Assembly: GCA_021797675.1 (NCBI GenBank)
Contig: JAJZZH010000022.1
Coordinates: 1-55,510 of the forward strand
Direction of reading: 5' to 3'
Origin: Bacillota bacterium
Lineage (GTDB): Bacteria > Bacillota > Sulfobacillia > Sulfobacillales > Sulfobacillaceae
Length of the DNA stretch: 55,510 nucleotides
Position numbers and translations under genes: made by a program. Below, in pieces: positions 4,224-28,169 of this stretch; position 1 is the stretch's first letter, and the number at the start of each line of letters is the position of its first letter. The notes beneath the pieces were generated by a model, which saw nothing but the letters and a program-made list of their open reading frames with translations, did not search any database and was not told where the DNA came from.

Positions 4224-5420
4224 ATGATCAAACCTGCGGCCAGAATGGCGGAACTTCCGCCGTACCTGTTTCTTGAATTGGATCGCTTAGCGGAGGCTCG
4301 GCGTCAACTTGGCCGAGATGTGATTAATCTCGGTGTGGGAGACCCGGATTTGCCGACGCCCGACTATATTGTGGACGCCATGATGCAGGCGGTCAAACGG
4401 CCGGCGAATCATCGCTATCCCAACTATTTGGGTGGGGTGTCCTTTCGCCGTTCGATGGCGCAGTGGTATCACCACCGCTTCGGAGTCGAACTCGACCCCG
4501 ACCGCGAAGTCGTGGGATTAATTGGGTCCAAAGAGGGCATTGCACATTTGATATGGGCGATGGCGGGAGCGGGTGACCTGGTGCTGGTGCCTGACCCCGC
4601 ATATCCTGTGTATGCAACCCAGGCCACGCTGGCAGGAGCGGAGGCGGTGACGCTGGCCTTGGATCCGTCGCGCGGATTTCTCCCCGATTTGGACGCAGTT
4701 GACGAAGCGGTGTGGCGCCAGGCCAAGATGCTCTGGTTAAACTATCCCAACAACCCGACCGGAGCCATCGCGCCCGAAGCGTTTTTGGCCGAGGCCGTCG
4801 ACCGCTGCCGGCATTACGACGTATTATTGTGCCACGACAACGCCTATGCGGAAATGACCTACGACGGATATCGAGCGCCCAGCGTATTGCAAATTCCGGG
4901 CGCCAAGGAGATCGCGGTCGAGTTCTACTCTTTTTCGAAACCATTTAATATGACGGGCTGGCGCGTCGCCGCCGCGGTGGGGGCTCCGGTGGCCATCGAA
5001 GCGTTGGGGCTCTTGAAGAGCCATTTGGATTCTGGGGTGTTTACAGCGGTGCAAGAGGCGGCGATCGTTGCGTTAGACACCGGAGGGGGAAGCGAGGCGG
5101 GGCGGGTCTTCGAACGAATGAATGCCATCTACGCCGCCCGCCGCGACCTCGTGGTCGACGGCTTGAGTGCGGCTGGACTCGATATTTCGCGGCCCTTGGC
5201 GACATTTTACCTCTGGTTTCGGACCCCGGGGAAAATGACCTCGGCGGCCGCATCCAAGTTTTTCTTGGAGCAGGCAGATACGGTGGTTACGCCCGGCCGG
5301 GCGTATGGCGCCCATGGCGAAGGATGGCTTCGCATTGCGCTGACAGAATCCGAGGAGCGCTTGCAAAGCGCGGTGGAACGGATGGCTGCCGCCGTCAAGA
5401 TGCACCCGGTTGGCAGCTGA
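4224..5420 (+). CDS. dapL: LL-diaminopimelate aminotransferase (class I aminotransferase)
   Basis: The enzyme probably converts tetrahydrodipicolinate directly to LL-diaminopimelate with glutamate and PLP, bypassing succinyl or acetyl intermediates. The 398-residue fold-type I protein shows INLGVGDPDLPTP near the N-terminus, YPNNPTGA, and the PLP lysine (about residue 239) in SFSKPFNMTGWR, all typical of DapL and related transaminases. ATG 4224 is preferred over the in-frame GTG at 4218 because AAAGGAG lies 5 bases before the ATG and overlaps the GTG. Proximity to dapA supports the DapL role. Another aspartate/aromatic transaminase of the same class is possible. A bidirectional hairpin follows. 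Confidence 0.8.
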   Translation: MIKPAARMAELPPYLFLELDRLAEARRQLGRDVINLGVGDPDLPTPDYIVDAMMQAVKRPANHRYPNYLGGVSFRRSMAQWYHHRFGVELDPDREVVGLIGSKEGIAHLIWAMAGAGDLVLVPDPAYPVYATQATLAGAEAVTLALDPSRGFLPDLDAVDEAVWRQAKMLWLNYPNNPTGAIAPEAFLAEAVDRCRHYDVLLCHDNAYAEMTYDGYRAPSVLQIPGAKEIAVEFYSFSKPFNMTGWRVAAAVGAPVAIEALGLLKSHLDSGVFTAVQEAAIVALDTGGGSEAGRVFERMNAIYAARRDLVVDGLSAAGLDISRPLATFYLWFRTPGKMTSAAASKFFLEQADTVVTPGRAYGAHGEGWLRIALTESEERLQSAVERMAAAVKMHPVGS

Positions 5421-19133: not shown

Positions 19134-19211
19134 GGTGGATGTAGCTCAGTTGGTTAGAGCACCAGGTTGTGGCCCTGGGGGTCGGGGGTTCGAATCCCCT
19201 CATTCACCCCA
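19134..19211 (+). tRNA. tRNA-His (anticodon GTG)
   Basis: A complete cloverleaf with acceptor GTGGATG/CATTCAC, D arm TAGCTCAGTTGGTTAGAGC, anticodon loop TTGTGGC with GTG at 19169-19171, T arm GGGGGTTCGAATCCCC and an encoded CCA (19209-19211). The extra G at 19134 opposite C19208 is the G-1:C73 identity pair of tRNA-His. Confidence 0.97.
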
Positions 19212-19217
19212 AATCCT

Positions 19218-19240
19218 GCCCCTCAAGGGGCTCCTTTTTT
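19218..19240 (+). terminator. Hairpin with T-run after tRNA-His
   Basis: GCCCCT (19218-19223) pairs with AGGGGC (19226-19231), followed by TCCTTTTTT. It lies only two bases before tRNA-Arg, so it may be a partial terminator or may separate the two tRNA transcripts. Confidence 0.6.
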
Positions 19241-19242
19241 AA

Positions 19243-19318
19243 GCGCCCGTAGCTCAGTGGATAGAGTGACGGACTTCGAATCCGGAGGTCGTAGGTTCGA
19301 ATCCTACCGGGCGCACCA
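19243..19318 (+). tRNA. tRNA-Arg (anticodon TCG)
   Basis: Acceptor GCGCCCG/CGGGCGC, D arm TAGCTCAGTGGATAGAGT, anticodon loop CTTCGAA with TCG at 19276-19278 (reads CGA-type arginine codons), T arm GTAGGTTCGAATCCTAC and encoded CCA (19316-19318). All stems pair. Confidence 0.97.
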
Positions 19319-19319
19319 G

Positions 19320-19403
19320 GCGAGGGTGATGGAATGGCAGACATGCGAGACTTAGGATCTCGTGCCGCAAGGCGTAAGGGTTCAAGTCCCTTCCCTCGCA
19401 CCA
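19320..19403 (+). tRNA. tRNA-Leu (anticodon TAG)
   Basis: A class II tRNA with a long variable arm. Acceptor GCGAGGG/CCCTCGC, anticodon loop CTTAGGA with TAG at 19353-19355, variable arm TGCCGCAAGGCG, T arm AAGGGTTCAAGTCCCTT and encoded CCA (19401-19403). It starts one base after tRNA-Arg ends, so the two are surely processed from one transcript. Confidence 0.97.
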
Positions 19404-19436
19404 TAACCCTTTAGTGCGGAAAACGAGGGCCGGTAT

Positions 19437-19466
19437 GCCTCGCCCAGGTGGTTGAGGCGGTTTTTT
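19437..19466 (+). terminator. Terminator of the tRNA cluster
   Basis: GCCTC (19437-19441) pairs with GAGGC (19454-19458) and is followed by GG and six T residues (19461-19466). It separates the tRNA cluster from the tig operon. Confidence 0.6.
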
Positions 19467-19519
19467 GGTGTTTTCCGTTCCAGATGATTTGCCAGAGGGT
19501 GGCTTGGTCCGCCCGTTTA

Positions 19520-19550
19520 GGTGTGTTTGGAAACACACCAATGTTATAAT
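19520..19550 (+). promoter_or_regulatory. tig promoter region with 20-bp palindrome
   Basis: A perfect TATAAT lies at 19545-19550, about 36 bases before the tig start. Directly upstream, 19520-19539 reads GGTGTGTTTGGAAACACACC, an inverted repeat with two perfect 9-base arms and a GG centre. It covers the position where the -35 box should be (about 19522-19527), where no good TTGACA match exists. The geometry suggests an operator for a dimeric regulator, or an activator-dependent promoter, for the tig-clpP-clpX operon. It does not match the CtsR direct repeat or the CIRCE element. Confidence 0.6.
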
Positions 19551-19585
19551 GAGCCTGACCGAGTTTTGAGGAGGCAGTGAGCTTA

Positions 19586-20893
19586 ATGCAAGTCGTTGCA
19601 GAACGGTTGCCGAATGCGGTGGCCAAAATTTCAGTCACGATCGACCACGATGAGGTTGTTCGGGCGAGTGACGTTGCGTTTCAACGTGTGGTAACGAAAT
19701 ACAACGTGGCCGGATTTCGCCGAGGCAAGGTGCCCCGCTACATCTTTGAGCGCATGGTGGGGGTCGACGTTATTTTTCAGGCGGCGGCAGAAGATTTGGT
19801 GAAACGGTACTACCCAGGCGCACTCCAGGAAACCGGGGTGGAGCCGGTCGCGGACCCGGACATTCGCGTGGAGTCCTTGGGGATGGCGGAAGATGAGCCG
19901 TTTCGGTTTGTGGTTGAAGTGGAGGCTAAGCCGGCTATTGAGTTCGGCGACTATTCGGACTTGTTGAAGGAACCGTTAACCATTCCTGAATTCAGTGCGC
20001 AACAATTAGAGGAGGCCATGCAGGACGTTGCTCAATCGGCCGGGCAATTGGTCCCCGCAGACGAGGAGCCGGTGGCCAAAGGGGATCAAGTTGTCTTAGA
20101 CATCAAGGGACACCTTGAAGACAGCGACGGCAGTCCGGACGAGGAATGCTTTGTCGAAGACGAGGATTACACCGTGGTCGTCGGCGACGGTACGATGGTG
20201 GAGGGGTTGGACGAGCACCTCATTGGGTTGCGAGTTGGGGAACCGGCCAGATTCCGGGTGGTCTATCCGGAAGCGCATCCCGACGTGGAGGTGGCGGGCA
20301 AACCCGTGTGGTTCGAGGTCACCGTCAAAGAGAATAAGCGGGTCGAGGTGCCGCCGATTGATGACGACTTGGCCAAGGCGCTGGAGTATGATTCTTTGGA
20401 GAGCCTTCGGCAGGTGGTGGCTGAGCGCTTGGCCGCCAGCTTAGAAGAACAGGCCAAAGAGGAGCGCTTTCGGCGGATTTTGGGCAAACTTAAAGAGCGG
20501 GTCACATTTGAAGTGCCTAAGAAGCTTATTGATCTGGGCTTGCGCCAGCAGATGCAAGAGTTGGCAGCGAATTTTGCCCGGATGAATGTGACGCTTGAGG
20601 ACTATATGGAGAGGACTCAGATCGACCAGGCATCGCTGGAGGCTGAGCTACGGCCCCAGGTGGAAGAGCTGGTGCGGGAAAAACTTATTTTGCAAGCCAT
20701 TGCAAGACGCGAGGGATTGACCGTGGATGATGACGAGGTCATGGAATCCGTTCGGCAGGTGGCGACGTTGTCGCACCAGTCGGTCGGCCAGGTATTGCGA
20801 ACCGTTCAAGAAAATGGTGAGCTACAGCAAATTCGCGACAACATGTTGGCCGGCAAGGCTGCAGCATACTTGGCCACGAAAGTGGTCGCTTAA
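19586..20893 (+). CDS. tig: Trigger factor
   Basis: A ribosome-bound chaperone with peptidyl-prolyl isomerase activity. The 435-residue protein has three domains: an N-terminal ribosome-binding domain with VAGFRRGKVPRYIFE (the FRxGxxP signature), an FKBP-type domain from about residue 155 to 240 (KGDQVVLDIKG, PEAHPDVEVAGKPVWFEVTVKENKR), and a long helical C-terminal domain. ATG 19586 is 11 bases after GAGGAGG; the GTG three codons earlier is too close to it. The gene is followed by clpP 18 bases later. Confidence 0.95.
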   Translation: MQVVAERLPNAVAKISVTIDHDEVVRASDVAFQRVVTKYNVAGFRRGKVPRYIFERMVGVDVIFQAAAEDLVKRYYPGALQETGVEPVADPDIRVESLGMAEDEPFRFVVEVEAKPAIEFGDYSDLLKEPLTIPEFSAQQLEEAMQDVAQSAGQLVPADEEPVAKGDQVVLDIKGHLEDSDGSPDEECFVEDEDYTVVVGDGTMVEGLDEHLIGLRVGEPARFRVVYPEAHPDVEVAGKPVWFEVTVKENKRVEVPPIDDDLAKALEYDSLESLRQVVAERLAASLEEQAKEERFRRILGKLKERVTFEVPKKLIDLGLRQQMQELAANFARMNVTLEDYMERTQIDQASLEAELRPQVEELVREKLILQAIARREGLTVDDDEVMESVRQVATLSHQSVGQVLRTVQENGELQQIRDNMLAGKAAAYLATKVVA

Positions 20894-20911: not shown

Positions 20912-21535
20912 ATGGATGCCATGAATTACCTCATTCCGATGGTGGTCGAACAGACCAACCGCGGCGAACGCTCGTACGATATCTACTCGCGGTTGTTGAA
21001 GGAACGGATTATCTTCTTGGGCAACGCCATCGATGACGATGTCGCCAACTTGGTGATTGCGCAGATGCTGTTCTTAGAAAGTGATGATCCGGAGCGGGAT
21101 ATTCACCTCTATGTTAATTCGCCGGGCGGATCGGTTAGCGCTGGGTTGGGGATCTATGATACTATGCAGTTTGTCAAGCCGGATGTGTCCACCATTTGCG
21201 TGGGGATGGCCGCCAGCATGGGGGCGCTGCTGTTGGCGGGTGGTGCCGAAAAGAAGCGCTATGCGCTGCGCAATGCGCGCGTTATGATCCATGAACCGTG
21301 GATTAACAACCTGGGGGGCAAAACGACCGATGTCGAGATCCAGATGAAGGAACTCTTGCGCAGTCGGGAGACGTTGGCTAAAATCTTGGCCAATCATACG
21401 CAGCATTCTGTGGAGCAAATTCTCGAGGAAACGCAGCGGGATTACTGGATGACTGCAGATGAGGCCCGTGCATATCATCTTATTGACGAAGTCATGCAGC
21501 CTCGGGGTAAGTCGACGTCGACCGCCGGCCAGTAG
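20912..21535 (+). CDS. clpP: ATP-dependent Clp protease proteolytic subunit
   Basis: ClpP forms the tetradecameric peptidase used by ClpX. The 207-residue protein has catalytic Ser102 in GMAASMGA, His127 in MIHEPW and an Asp near 177 in [29 protein letters not shown] is the substrate-binding loop. The usual sequence around the histidine in many relatives is HQP; here it is HEP, a minor variation. AAAGGAGG lies 11 bases before ATG 20912; the ATG at 20921 is also possible. It sits between tig and clpX, the usual arrangement. Confidence 0.97.
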
Positions 21536-21548
21536 GGAGGGATTCCTC

Positions 21549-22832
21549 ATGTTCAAGTTCACCGATGAAAAGGGACAGTTGAAGTGCTCGTTTTGCGGAA
21601 AGTATCAGGACCAGGTGAAGCGGTTGATTGCTGGGCCCGGAGGAGTCTATATTTGCGACGAGTGCGTCGAGTTGTGTTCGGAGATTATTGAGGAAGAACT
21701 GAACGACGACGTCGAATTTGAACTGAAGGACATTCCGAAGCCGCTTGCGATCAAGGCTGTACTGGACCAATACGTGGTCGGCCAGGAACGAGCCAAGAGG
21801 ACCCTGTCGGTGGCGGTGTATAACCACTACAAACGCATCAACGTGGGCAACAAGGTGGACGATGTCGAGCTGCAAAAGTCCAACATTCTTATGTTGGGAC
21901 CGACCGGATCCGGGAAAACTTTGCTGGCGCAAACCTTGGCGAAGATCTTGAATGTGCCGTTTGCCATTGCCGACGCGACCTCCTTGACTGAGGCGGGCTA
22001 CGTGGGTGAAGACGTCGAGAACATCCTGCTCAAGCTTATTCAGGCCGCGGACTACGATGTGGAAAAGGCTGAAAAAGGCATCGTCTACATCGACGAAGTG
22101 GACAAAATTGCGCGTAAGTCGGAAAATCCGTCGATTACGCGCGATGTCTCCGGCGAGGGGGTCCAGCAGGCGCTGCTCAAGATTTTGGAGGGCACGGTGG
22201 CGTCGGTTCCGCCTCAAGGAGGGCGCAAGCATCCGCATCAAGAATTTATTCAGATTGATACCACGAATATTTTATTTATTGTCGGTGGCGCCTTTGACGG
22301 CGTCGAGAAGATTATCAAGCAGCGCATTGGACGGAAGGGGCTGGGCTTCAACGCTGAACTGCAGAGTGCTAAGAGTGTAAACATCGGCGAGATTCTCAGA
22401 CGGATCATGCCCGAGGACTTGCTCAAGTTCGGCTTGATTCCCGAGTTCGTCGGTCGGCTGCCAATTATGGTGACGCTCGACGCCCTGGATGAAGAGGCCT
22501 TGGTGAAGATCTTGACAGAGCCGCGCAATGCCCTGGTGAAGCAGTACCAGAAAATGCTGGCACTCGACAGCATCGAGCTGGAGTTTAAAGAGGACGCGGT
22601 GTCGGCGGTAGCTCGCGAGGCCATGCGGCGGAATACGGGAGCCCGGGCATTACGGGCGATTATCGAAGACATCATGTTAAACGTGATGTATGAAATGCCG
22701 AGTCGGAATGACGTGGCGAAGTGTGTGGTGACGCAGGAAGTGGTCGAAAACCACGACGAGCCGTTGCTGGTCACGAGCCAGGATCGGGCGAAACCGCGGA
22801 GTGGAAAGAAACAAAAAGAAGAGACGGCCTGA
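21549..22832 (+). CDS. clpX: ATP-dependent Clp protease ATP-binding subunit ClpX
   Basis: ClpX is the hexameric AAA+ unfoldase that feeds ClpP. The 427-residue protein has the N-terminal zinc-binding domain with Cys13, Cys16, Cys36 and Cys39, Walker A GPTGSGKT (near residue 115), Walker [11 protein letters not shown], the [19 protein letters not shown] pore/sensor segment and the ClpP-contacting IGRKGLGF loop (the family IGF-type tripeptide appears as LGF). GGGAGGG precedes ATG 21549. A strong terminator follows immediately. Confidence 0.97.
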
Positions 22833-23026: not shown

Positions 23027-23953
23027 ATGGATCGCCGCCCGAGGACGTTGTTTCTCGCGAACCGCCTTGCCCGCAAGGGCGCTCTCGCCTTCGCCAGGAT
23101 GGTGGCCCCATTGGCGCGAGTTACCAATCTGGTAGGGGCGGAAATTCCCGAGGGGGAGGCCGCCATGGTGGAAACCATTCGTCGCGGCTTGGCTGGGGGC
23201 ATCGAATGGTTTGTGATTGCCGGCGGGGATGGGACGCTAGCCGTGGCGGCCAACGAGTTGGTCGGTACCTCGGCGGTATTGGCCGCGCTTCCAGCGGGCA
23301 CGGGCAATACGTTGGCGTGGGCCCTGAGCCTGCCGAGGCGCGATTCCGACTGGCTGGCGATGGCGGCACAGGGGTTCGTCGATACGATGGATGTGGGCCT
23401 GGTCCAAGCCGGAGGTCAGCGCCGGGTGTTCTTGAACACCGTCACCATCGGTTTGGCAAGCACACTCGCGGGTCGTCTGACCCCAACCGAGAAGCGCCGG
23501 TTAGGGTTATTGGCCTGGCCCAGGCATTTGGGCTCGGTGTTAAATCAGGCGCCGGTGGTGGAGGTGGCACTGTTGGATGCGTCGGGGACCTCTGATCGAT
23601 TTCTGACACGTCTGCTGGTGGTAGTCAACGGGTGCGGTCTGGCCGGACCGATCGTGGCGGGCCCGCCGCCTATGGCGAACCAGGACGGCGTCTTGGAGGT
23701 GTTTGCCCTGGGGGAGGATAGTCTCAGCTCCATGGCGCGGGTTACCGTGCAGGTGTTGCTTGCTCGTCATCGCGAAGATCCCGCCGCCCACTACCAACAG
23801 GCGTCAGCATTCAGTCTCCTAGCGCGACCCCCCCAGTCGATGGATATTGACGGGGAGCGGTGGGGACAAACGCCGGCGCGGTTTTCAGTGTTGCCAAGGG
23901 CACTTTCAACCCTTCTCCCAGAGCGTTTCGCATCCCCCGGCCATTTGCTATGA
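23027..23953 (+). CDS. Diacylglycerol/lipid kinase family protein
   Basis: A 308-residue member of the DAGK catalytic family, soluble, likely phosphorylating a lipid such as diacylglycerol (DgkB-like). The nucleotide site is FVIAGGDGTLAVAANEL near residue 62-78, followed by LPAGTGNTLAWAL and a C-terminal beta domain with VVVNGCGLAGP and SMDIDGERWG. AAAGGGGGG lies 5 bases before ATG 23027. It is inserted between clpX and lonB; in Bacillus these are adjacent. Sphingosine or YegS-type substrates cannot be excluded. Confidence 0.85.
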   Translation: MDRRPRTLFLANRLARKGALAFARMVAPLARVTNLVGAEIPEGEAAMVETIRRGLAGGIEWFVIAGGDGTLAVAANELVGTSAVLAALPAGTGNTLAWALSLPRRDSDWLAMAAQGFVDTMDVGLVQAGGQRRVFLNTVTIGLASTLAGRLTPTEKRRLGLLAWPRHLGSVLNQAPVVEVALLDASGTSDRFLTRLLVVVNGCGLAGPIVAGPPPMANQDGVLEVFALGEDSLSSMARVTVQVLLARHREDPAAHYQQASAFSLLARPPQSMDIDGERWGQTPARFSVLPRALSTLLPERFASPGHLL

Positions 23954-24028: not shown

Positions 24029-25729
24029 GTGAGTCTGACCAATATGATAACCCTGGTGCAGTTCTTGTTTGCGGTCATCATTGGGCTTTACTTTTGGAAC
24101 CTGCTGAAATCTCAACAGGGGAACAAGGTGGCGGTACAGCGGGAATCGCGCAAGGAAATCGAAAAGTTGCGACGGCTACGCTCGATTCAATTGACCGAAC
24201 CGCTATCGGAGAAGACTCGGCCCAGTCGATTTGAAGAGATTATCGGCCAAGCCGACGGAATTCGTGCGCTGCGCGCCGCCCTGTGCGGTCCCAACCCGCA
24301 GCACGTGCTCATTTACGGGCCGCCCGGAGTGGGCAAAACGGCAGCTGCGCGCTTGGTCCTGCAAGATGCCATCGCCAATCCGGCATCGCCGTTTCGGTCT
24401 GACGCGAAATTCATTGAACTTGACGCCACCACGGCCCGATTTGATGAACGCGGCATCGCGGATCCTCTCATCGGATCGGTCCACGATCCTATCTACCAGG
24501 GCGCCGGGCCGCTCGGCATGGCCGGTATTCCCCAACCCAAACCGGGAGCAGTTACTAAGGCACACGGTGGGGTCTTGTTTATTGACGAGATTGGCGAATT
24601 GCACCCCATTCAGATGAACAAATTGTTGAAGGTACTTGAGGATCGCAAGGTGTTTTTCGAGTCCGCGTATTACAACAGCGAGGATCAGAGCGTTCCCCTG
24701 CATATTCAGGATATTTTTGATAACGGCTTACCGGCGGACTTTCGACTCGTGGGGGCTACTACCCGTCAGCCGCAGGAGATCCCGCCCGCCATTCGCTCAC
24801 GGTGCCTAGAGATCTATTTTCGTCCCCTGTTAGCCGATGAAATCGCCCTCATCGCGGTCAACGCCGCCAAGAAGATGGGCGCGGAGATCGCTGACCAGGC
24901 GGTCGACGTATTGAAGGAATATGCGACGAACGGTCGCGAAGCGGTCAACATGGTTCAAATTGCCGCCGGTTTAGGGATGACCGATGGACGGTCGCAAGTT
25001 ACCCGCGACGATGCGGAATGGGTGATCAATTCTGGGCAGTACAGTCGCCGCCCCGACCGCAAGATTCCCGAAGCGCCCAAAGTTGGATTGGTGAACGGAC
25101 TGGCCATCTATGGACCGAATTTGGGTACGGTCATTGAGGTGGAGGCGGTTGCCGGATTGGCCTCCAAGCCACCGGGCCGACTCTGGGTGACGGGGATGAT
25201 CGACGAAGAAGAAATGGGGTCGCTGGGTCGCACGATTCGTCGGCGGTCGACGGCTCGGGCGTCGGTCGACAACGTTCTCACCGTGCTCCGCAACATCGAA
25301 AAGCTTGAACCCGAAGCGTACGATGTGCACGTAAACTTTCCGGGTGGTATCCCGCTCGACGGACCGTCAGCGGGGATCGCGGTGGCAACGGCGCTGTACT
25401 CCGCGTTGACCGGCAAACCCTGCGACAATCGGGTAGCAATGACCGGAGAGCTCTCTATTCAAGGCTCGGTCAAGATGGTCGGTGGCGTAGCGGCTAAGGT
25501 CGAGGCCGCGCGACGGGCCGGATGCCGCAAGATCCTGATTCCCCGCGGCAATTGGCAGGATGCTTTCGGTCAGCTGGAGGGCACCGTCGTCATCCCGATC
25601 GATTCCTTGCGGGAGGTGCTGAATCAGGCCATTCAGGAAGTCGAGACGGCAGTCCCTCCGCTGGGAATCGTGGACACCGACGTGCTCGCGGCGAGTTCCC
25701 ACGGGGGCGTCGGCCAAACCGTGCACTAA
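24029..25729 (+). CDS. lonB: Membrane-anchored Lon-like protease LonB
   Basis: A spore-former Lon paralogue, expressed in the forespore in Bacillus. The 566-residue protein has one N-terminal membrane segment (about residues 7-26), an AAA+ domain with Walker A GPPGVGKT at 97-104 and GVLFIDEIGEL, and a C-terminal Lon protease domain. The catalytic Ser is in [12 protein letters not shown] and the Lys in GGVAAKVEAARRAG. There is no long N-terminal Lon substrate domain. GTG 24029 follows GGAGGGGGG. The true lon gene follows 118 bases later. Confidence 0.95.
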   Translation: MSLTNMITLVQFLFAVIIGLYFWNLLKSQQGNKVAVQRESRKEIEKLRRLRSIQLTEPLSEKTRPSRFEEIIGQADGIRALRAALCGPNPQHVLIYGPPGVGKTAAARLVLQDAIANPASPFRSDAKFIELDATTARFDERGIADPLIGSVHDPIYQGAGPLGMAGIPQPKPGAVTKAHGGVLFIDEIGELHPIQMNKLLKVLEDRKVFFESAYYNSEDQSVPLHIQDIFDNGLPADFRLVGATTRQPQEIPPAIRSRCLEIYFRPLLADEIALIAVNAAKKMGAEIADQAVDVLKEYATNGREAVNMVQIAAGLGMTDGRSQVTRDDAEWVINSGQYSRRPDRKIPEAPKVGLVNGLAIYGPNLGTVIEVEAVAGLASKPPGRLWVTGMIDEEEMGSLGRTIRRRSTARASVDNVLTVLRNIEKLEPEAYDVHVNFPGGIPLDGPSAGIAVATALYSALTGKPCDNRVAMTGELSIQGSVKMVGGVAAKVEAARRAGCRKILIPRGNWQDAFGQLEGTVVIPIDSLREVLNQAIQEVETAVPPLGIVDTDVLAASSHGGVGQTVH

Positions 25730-25847
25730 CCATAGATACGGGTCGGTGTTTGTGAGTTCTCCTTTGCGTAGAGACGGGTTGGAGGTAGGATACTAGAATA
25801 GATAGTGCGCGGCGCGTGGGATATAGCGCGAGGGGAGGCCACCGACG

Positions 25848-28169
25848 TTGAAGGAATTGCCGTTGTTACCGCTACGTGGAGTGCTGGTCTTTCCGTCGAT
25901 GGTGGTGCCGCTGGAAGTCGGCCGCGCCGGGAGTCTTCATGCCCTGGAGGCGGCCATGCTGCGCGACCGGGCTTTGCTCTTTGTGGCACAGCGCGAAACG
26001 GCGCTCGATGACCCGGGAGCCGACGATTTATACCGCGTTGGTGTGGTCGGTGAAGTCAAGCAGCTTTTAAAGATGCCCAGTGGCGGTTCAAAGGTGGTAG
26101 TGGAGGGCCTGGCCCGGGCCAAGGTGCTCTCGATCGATACCGAGGGAGAGCATTTCACGGCCACGGTCGAGGAAATTGGCGAAGATGCCGCCATCGACAC
26201 CGAGACGGAAGCGCTCATGCATCTGACCGTGCAACTCTTTGAACAGTACATCAAAAACGCCAATCGGATGCCGGGAGACGTGTCGTTAAGCATGAACCTG
26301 GATGATCCCGCACGCTTGGCGGACACCATCGCCAGCTACCTGGATGTGCGGACGCAGGAAAAACAGGAAGTCTTGGAAGCCTTCAGCGCCTATGATCGTC
26401 TGACCAAGGTATCCGACCTGCTATCCCACCAAATCGACTTGCTTGAAATCGAAAAACGCATTAATGTTCAGGTGCGTAAGCAGATGGAACACACGCAAAA
26501 GGAATATTATCTGCGTGAGCAATTGAAGGCGATTCAGCGGGAACTAGGCGAAACCGAAGACGATGTGAGCGAGATCGACGAGCTTCGCCAACGCTTGGCG
26601 GGCATCAAAAATCTCAGCGACGAAGTGCGGGAGAAAGTGCGCCGGGAGATCGACCGTTTGGCGAAGATGCCCGCCATGTCAGCCGAGGCGGTCGTGGTCC
26701 GTAACTATGTCGACTGGATTATGGCCTTGCCGTGGGATGAGGTAACCCCCGAGCAATTGGACATTCAACGGGCGGAGGAAACCCTCAATGCGGAGCACTA
26801 TGGCTTGGAGCGCGTGAAGGATCGGATCCTGGAGTACCTTGCCGTCCGTCAGCTCTCCCATTCGCTGAAAGGACCCATTTTATGTTTGGTAGGCCCTCCC
26901 GGAGTGGGGAAGACTTCGTTGGCGCGGTCGATTGCCCAGGCCACCGGACGCCGTTTCGTCCGAGTTTCTCTGGGTGGAGTGCGCGACGAAGCGGAAATCC
27001 GAGGCCATCGGAGAACGTACGTGGGCGCGATGCCGGGCCGCATTATTCAGGCGCTGCGCCAGGCGGGTTCCCGTAATCCCCTGTTGTTGCTGGATGAAGT
27101 GGATAAAATGGCGGCGGATTTTCGGGGGGATCCGGCAGCGGCGTTGTTGGAGGTCCTCGACCCAGAGCAAAACGCGCATTTTTCCGATCATTACATCGAA
27201 ATCCCGGTGAATTTATCGGAAGTCATGTTCATTACCACCGCCAATGTGGCTCACCCGATTCCCGCGCCCTTGCTTGATCGGATGGAGACCATTTCGATTG
27301 CCGGCTATACCGAAGAGGAAAAATTGCATATCGCGCGCCGGCATCTCTGGCCCAAACAGTGTACCCAGCATGGATTGGGTGACGGCCGGGTTACCATCAG
27401 CGACAACGCGCTGACCGAAATCATTCGGCACTACACGCGTGAAGCGGGTGTCCGCCAACTGGAGCGCCAACTCGAAAGTATTTTGCGCAAGGTCGCCCGT
27501 GAAGTGCTGCAGGGGCGCCAAAAAATCCCTGCGCGGGTCGGTAAGCATCGCGTTCCCTATTATTTGGGCCATGAAAGGGTGCATCACCAGATTGCCGAAC
27601 GCGGTCAATTGGTAGGCACGGTCATTGGCCTCGCCGTCACCCAAACGGGCGGGGATGTCATGTCGATTGAGGTGAGTGCCATGCCGGGAAAGGGCAAGCT
27701 CAGTCTGACCGGGCAGTTGGGCGACGTGATGCAAGAATCCGCCCAGGCGGCTTTTAGCTTCATTCGCGCCCATGCGGCCGAACTCGGGATCGCCACCAAT
27801 TTTCATGAGCAGGTGGATACCCATGTGCACGTTCCCGAAGGGGCCATCCCCAAGGATGGACCGTCAGCCGGGATTGCCATGGCGACCGCCATGATATCCG
27901 CGTTGACGGGCCAAGCGGTCGCCCCGGACTTGGCGATGACAGGAGAGATTACGCTCCGCGGTCGGGTGCTGCCCGTGGGGGGAATCAAAGAGAAGGCGCT
28001 GGCGGCCCACCGGGCCGGAGTGCGGGTGCTTATCGTGCCGCGGGCCAATGCCGCCGATCTGGAAGAAGTGCCGAGCTATATCGTCCGTTCGCTGTCTGTG
28101 CATTTGGTCGACTCGTTGGAAGAGGTCTTGCGACATGCTCTAATCAAGGGATCAGCCGATGGCAAGTAA
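25848..28169 (+). CDS. lon: ATP-dependent protease Lon
   Basis: A cytosolic quality-control protease of 773 residues, full family length. It has the N-terminal LON domain starting [13 protein letters not shown], a coiled-coil region, an AAA+ module with [15 protein letters not shown] near residue 348, and the peptidase domain. The catalytic Ser lies in [12 protein letters not shown] (about 671) and the Lys in [14 protein letters not shown] (about 714). The start is TTG 25848, placed by GAGGGGAGG about 10 bases upstream and by the family N-terminus. It overlaps engB by 11 bases. Confidence 0.97.

Follow-up and report, generated by a model that had tools for sequence, protein, structure and literature searches.

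The window analysed here, a 55,510-nucleotide stretch of DNA, carries on its forward strand the gene of the trigger factor (tig, 19586-20893, with the ATG at 19586; TIGR00115, 295.6 bits) followed by clpP (20912-21535; NF001368, 306.1 bits) and clpX (21549-22832; NF003745, 680.3 bits). The genes of LonB (spore type) and Lon (24029-28169) lie after clpX with one gene (23027-23953) between, so that clpP, clpX, lonB and lon are all found within 8 kb. We compared 34 genomes of the family and read 29 tig promoters; the studied genome (G000) belongs to genus g1, in which it has a single congener (G001). No tig match was obtained in G002, G005 and G013, probably due to assembly gaps (G002 is 97% and G005 91% complete). 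The ribosome-binding site of tig, GAGGAGG, is located at 19568-19574 of the forward strand and is aligned with GAGGAGG in the congener and in genera g10 and g6.

Upstream of tig, on the same strand, there is a tRNA cluster (19135-19403) which was identified by ARAGORN and by Rfam (RF00005) and consists of tRNA-His(gtg) at 19135-19211, tRNA-Arg(tcg) at 19243-19318 and tRNA-Leu(tag) at 19320-19403; the Rfam scan gave nothing but tRNAs above the gathering score. The cluster is closed before the tig promoter by a terminator-like hairpin, GCCTC...GAGGC followed by TTTTTT (19437-19466, forward strand), which is recognised by its sequence and fold and was not listed by a consensus terminator scan with a loop limit of 8. 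Relatives carry tRNA-Gly directly after tRNA-Leu, and the window stretch 19416-19482 aligns with it over the whole length and keeps the ends GCGGAA and TTCCG.TCCA, yet it receives no tRNA call, and an equally good alignment is reached by 7 of 500 shuffles. Judging by this alignment, the stretch is a probable remnant of a tRNA-Gly gene, an intact and near-identical copy of which is present on contig C206 of the genome. Further downstream, an imperfect dyad, GGGTGG-CTTGGT-CCGCCC, occupies 19497-19514 (no strand assigned). In the congener its arms are perfect (AGGGCGG-CTTGGT-CCGCCCT), and the common form, GGGYGG-CTTGGT-CCGCCC, is conserved there as strongly as the palindrome that is the subject of this work. 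No T-run follows this second dyad, and it may be a decayed terminator of the tRNA cluster.

The tig promoter and its palindrome

The tig-clpP-clpX promoter contains the element TGT-TATAAT (TGTTATAAT) at 19542-19550 of the forward strand. Its TATAAT hexamer (19545-19550) is preceded by TGT (19542-19544) and thus forms a perfect extended -10 element (TGnTATAAT), which was overlooked in the sequence-only reading of this DNA. The start site of tig transcription is predicted at 19557/19558, which is 7-8 nt downstream of the -10. Each of the 29 family tig promoters that were read has TGn-TATAAT, located 40-58 bases upstream of the start of tig, and the tig promoter is of an extended -10 type common to the whole family; literature searches found no description of this promoter. 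When compared with the Gram-positive -17 TRTG -14 form, the tig bases at -17 to -14 (AATG) match at three positions out of four. The best hexamer located 16-18 bp upstream of the -10 matches TTGACA at no more than 2/6 positions, which bears out the earlier statement that a TATAAT just downstream of the palindrome is not accompanied by a -35 box. A weak TTGnnn-type -35, 16-17 bases upstream, is present in most other genera; it is missing in g1 and in the genera nearest to it, g10 and g6.

The palindrome is a perfect inverted repeat of 20 bp, GGTGTGTTT-GG-AAACACACC (= GGTGTGTTTGGAAACACACC), at 19520-19539 (no strand assigned), with arms at 19520-19528 and 19531-19539 and a 2-bp GG spacer, and it ends 2 bp upstream of the extended -10. 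Its description as perfect is right (9+9 bases), and so is its assignment to the tig-clpP-clpX promoter, since it covers about -38 to -19 relative to the predicted start; its centre, previously placed near -26, moves to near -28 when recomputed from that start. The palindrome thereby has the dyad symmetry overlapping the polymerase-binding site that is looked for in a repressor operator. Compared with the extended -10 promoters of the other genera except the two nearest, the 20-bp dyad fills a space that mostly holds a weak TTGnnn -35.

The lack of a -35 had been taken to indicate an operator or an activator-dependent promoter. This argument is weakened because the extended -10 is family-wide, and because g10 and g6 have neither the -35 nor the palindrome, meaning that the absence of a -35 does not go hand in hand with the presence of the palindrome. 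The same two genera argue against the possibility that the dyad is an activator site that replaces the -35 contact, whether as a class II site or through spacer twisting of the MerR type. MerR-family operators do lie in promoter spacers, which speaks for this possibility, but the MerR layout depends on a -35 box at a distance of 19-20 bp from the -10, and the bases found at this spacing are GGTGTG/AGGTGT. Class II activator sites are centred about -41.5, unlike the dyad. Apart from MerR operators, activation is favoured by the absence of a -35 hexamer from the tig promoter and by a review (PMC2613000). The review notes that -35 or other upstream contacts are required by, or beneficial to, the majority of extended -10 promoters, and quotes that there is no clear case in which a -35 match and an activator site are both missing. 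We consider dependence on an activator the least likely reading of the palindrome, and a very improbable one.

When the promoter stretch alone (34 bases before the -10) was shuffled, none of 400 base shuffles scored as well as the natural sequence (P ~0.002). In the window as a whole there are two perfect dyads whose arms have 9 or more bases and whose spacer has 2 or fewer, versus 0.85 +/- 1.0 in dinucleotide shuffles; the one besides the palindrome is located at 5288-5305, at the end of an aminotransferase gene. By a rough estimate, which assumes ~2000 promoters with 20 allowed positions each, chance alone would place such a dyad at ~0.6 promoters per genome. For any given promoter the palindrome is thus unusual, whereas for a promoter picked out by a genome scan it is not, and it was a scan that brought the palindrome of the tig promoter to attention. 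This expectation favours a fortuitous dyad: the sequence requirements of an extended -10 promoter between -38 and -19 are low, and the symmetry may have arisen there by chance drift and be shared by the two related species through descent, with no protein reading it. The P value for the specific site argues in the opposite direction.

A role at the level of RNA can also be envisaged. The palindrome folds as a stable hairpin (z = -2.83), the upstream dyad at 19497-19514 folds as an RNA hairpin too, and the palindrome, alone or together with it, could act in read-through from the tRNA cluster, either in 3'-end formation or in insulation of the tig promoter. At both positions where the stems differ between the two species, G-U pairing is preserved, and the congener has no obvious U-run terminator after tRNA-Leu, which is in line with such a role. 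However, neither hairpin has a U-run after it, the terminator-like hairpin with its TTTTTT is already available in the studied species, covariation is not demonstrable from two sequences, and one-sided transitions preserve G-U about half of the time. A function in RNA therefore appears improbable to us, if slightly less so than activation.

Further copies and known regulatory systems

The sequence-only reading proposed to scan the genome for further copies and held that uniqueness of the palindrome, or its absence upstream of tig in relatives, would speak against it. The 4.06-Mb assembly (96.6% complete) contains a single copy within 3 mismatches, i.e., the palindrome is unique, which counts against an operator and in favour of a fortuitous dyad. 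As a positive control, the scan for CIRCE within 3 mismatches returned exactly two genomic sites, one at hrcA, where an HrcA-like gene is followed by a GrpE-like frame, and one at groES of groES-groEL (names are from translations by eye). Since both sites were recovered, a regulon of similar tightness would have been revealed; copy scans would miss a looser operator whose recognition tolerates many mismatches. Across the family, the core GTGTTTNNAAACAC, when up to one mismatch is allowed, occurs no more often than its reversed-pattern control, which is a further point against an operator, and its near matches in G000 and G001 mostly overlap long reading frames. When the full palindrome (up to 3 mismatches) and the core (up to 1) were sought as signs of a regulon in the studied genome and the family, only the tig copies stood above the reversed-pattern control. 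The core combined with the extended -10 layout was matched 21 times in 84,980 genomes, with ~7 matches expected at even base composition. Of the 21, one is the tig contig of the congener (L108; JAJZXC010000069.1, a Bacillota MAG); the remaining 20 belong to named taxa that are scattered and unrelated. A search of the 84,980-genome collection for relatives of tig, with confirmation by tblastn, yielded nothing.

The gene of a repressor commonly carries the repressor's operator as well. In the studied genome this is true of HrcA, with CIRCE present at hrcA, and this habit of repressors is an argument against reading the palindrome as an operator, as is the result of the Pfam search, which detected no DNA-binding transcription-factor domain among the 30 other window proteins scanned.

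The earlier conclusion that the palindrome belongs neither to CtsR nor to CIRCE stands. CtsR, which is encoded in the genome, controls clp genes in Firmicutes and reads a direct heptad repeat (GGTCAAA type), and no such repeat is found near tig within 3 mismatches. The resemblance to the HrcA system, which is present in the genome with its CIRCE, is that of a palindromic operator of a chaperone gene, but CIRCE is TTAGCACTC-N9-GAGTGCTAA, and the tig dyad shares neither its sequence nor its spacing; the two sites named above are the only CIRCE sites of the genome. Operators of the Rex or CRP/FNR type have the form TGTG-N8-CACA. The inner part of the palindrome, TGTG-TTTGGAAA-CACA, agrees with this form in the letters of the half-sites and in the 8-bp spacing, a likeness that we note as a lead only. 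The tig dyad differs from these operators in having neither the conserved A/T after TGTG (TGTGA...TCACA) nor the TTGTG of Rex, and there is no sign of a regulon of similar sites.

Conservation of the palindrome in the family

Among the 34 family genomes, the only other copy of the palindrome at a tig promoter is that of the congener, GGTGTGTTT-AA-AAACACGCC, in which 17 of the 18 arm bases are kept and one arm base and both spacer bases are changed. The arm change breaks one pair and makes this copy less symmetrical, which is easier to reconcile with a fortuitous dyad than with an operator. The palindrome is absent from the tig promoters of nine other genera, so conservation upstream of tig, the second outcome on which the earlier reading was staked, holds for the single congener and fails in the other genera. 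This confinement to one genus also favours a fortuitous dyad and disfavours an operator.

Over the 24 bases before TGn, the two g1 species are identical at 21 positions, at a fourfold-site identity of 0.60. Pairs of congeners that have no palindrome reach 21/24 at a fourfold-site identity of 0.51, 22/24 at 0.40 and 20-21/24 at 0.37-0.40, that is, 20-22/24 at equal or greater synonymous divergence, so that the palindrome does not stand out by its conservation. What is kept in g1 is ordinary for congeners and does not exceed the general level of promoter conservation that an operator would be expected to exceed; this weighs for a fortuitous dyad and against an operator. The placement of the substitutions is another matter. 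Two of the three changes in the 24 bp fall within the 2-bp spacer, and the probability that both spacer positions are hit is 0.011 if substitutions are random and independent, or ~0.16 if GG to AA was one event. This preference for the spacer counts against a fortuitous dyad and leans towards a protein that would read the dyad.

Dyads of unrelated sequence are present at the same promoter position at tig in three other genomes: CATGGG-GAA-CCCATG in G004 (L010), ACACCTT-TTT-AAGGTGT in G020 (L019) and CCACAG-TTCGGAG-CTGTGG in G041 (L113). At P <=0.05, dyads are found at 6/29 family tig promoters versus 0/40 other extended -10 promoter-like sites from eight family genomes, and the latter figure is a point for the operator reading. 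Of 34-mers drawn at random from the retrieved loci, 3.8% have a dyad score as high, and the dyads in genus g8 arise partly from complementarity of the -35 (GGACAC) with the TGTG before the -10. Considering that the promoters are related and given this background, the excess of dyads at family tig promoters is suggestive, and the recurring dyads were dropped as a basis for a conclusion.

A candidate operator of the tig-clpP-clpX genes

The reading that we tentatively favour, while giving it a little less than an even chance, is that the palindrome is the single-target operator of an occluding repressor. According to this reading, tig-clpP-clpX would be transcribed from the extended -10 promoter (TGT-TATAAT), whose recognition may require hardly any -35 contact or none, and in this genus the 20-bp dyad would fill the space that normally belongs to the -35 hexamer and the upstream part of the spacer. 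By binding to the dyad (about -38 to -19), a dimeric repressor would then block RNA polymerase. The dyad and its limitation to one genus, and the extended -10 element and its family-wide conservation, are directly established; protein binding, repression and the single target are what we infer.

In our view, a perfect dyad that lies over a promoter is functional in more cases than not. In addition to the 40 promoter-like sites that have no dyad at the P threshold given above, the operator reading is supported by the perfect arms, which lie exactly over the polymerase-binding stretch with the low shuffle probability given above, and by the congener, which keeps nearly all arm bases while both spacer bases differ. 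The uniqueness of the palindrome, its restriction to one genus, its ordinary conservation and the lack of a nearby regulator among the scanned window proteins all pull against a functional dyad. A fortuitous dyad is accordingly a strong contender, somewhat less probable than the operator; the two are nearly even, with the operator being the most likely. A narrower proposal, that a dedicated regulator which is neither CtsR nor HrcA reads only this one candidate operator at tig-clpP-clpX in the genus, is unlikely in our estimation. Should it be true, the unrelated dyads in G004, G020 and G041 would point to a rapid replacement of the operator from lineage to lineage.

If a protein binds the palindrome, the tig/ClpXP operon would be under a control separate from those of CtsR and HrcA, both of which are present in the genome. 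If no protein binds it, the tig promoter would provide a clean example of a perfect, operator-like promoter palindrome without a detectable regulon or lineage-wide conservation. Whichever reading of the palindrome holds, it is established that this family conserves an extended -10 element in its tig promoter.
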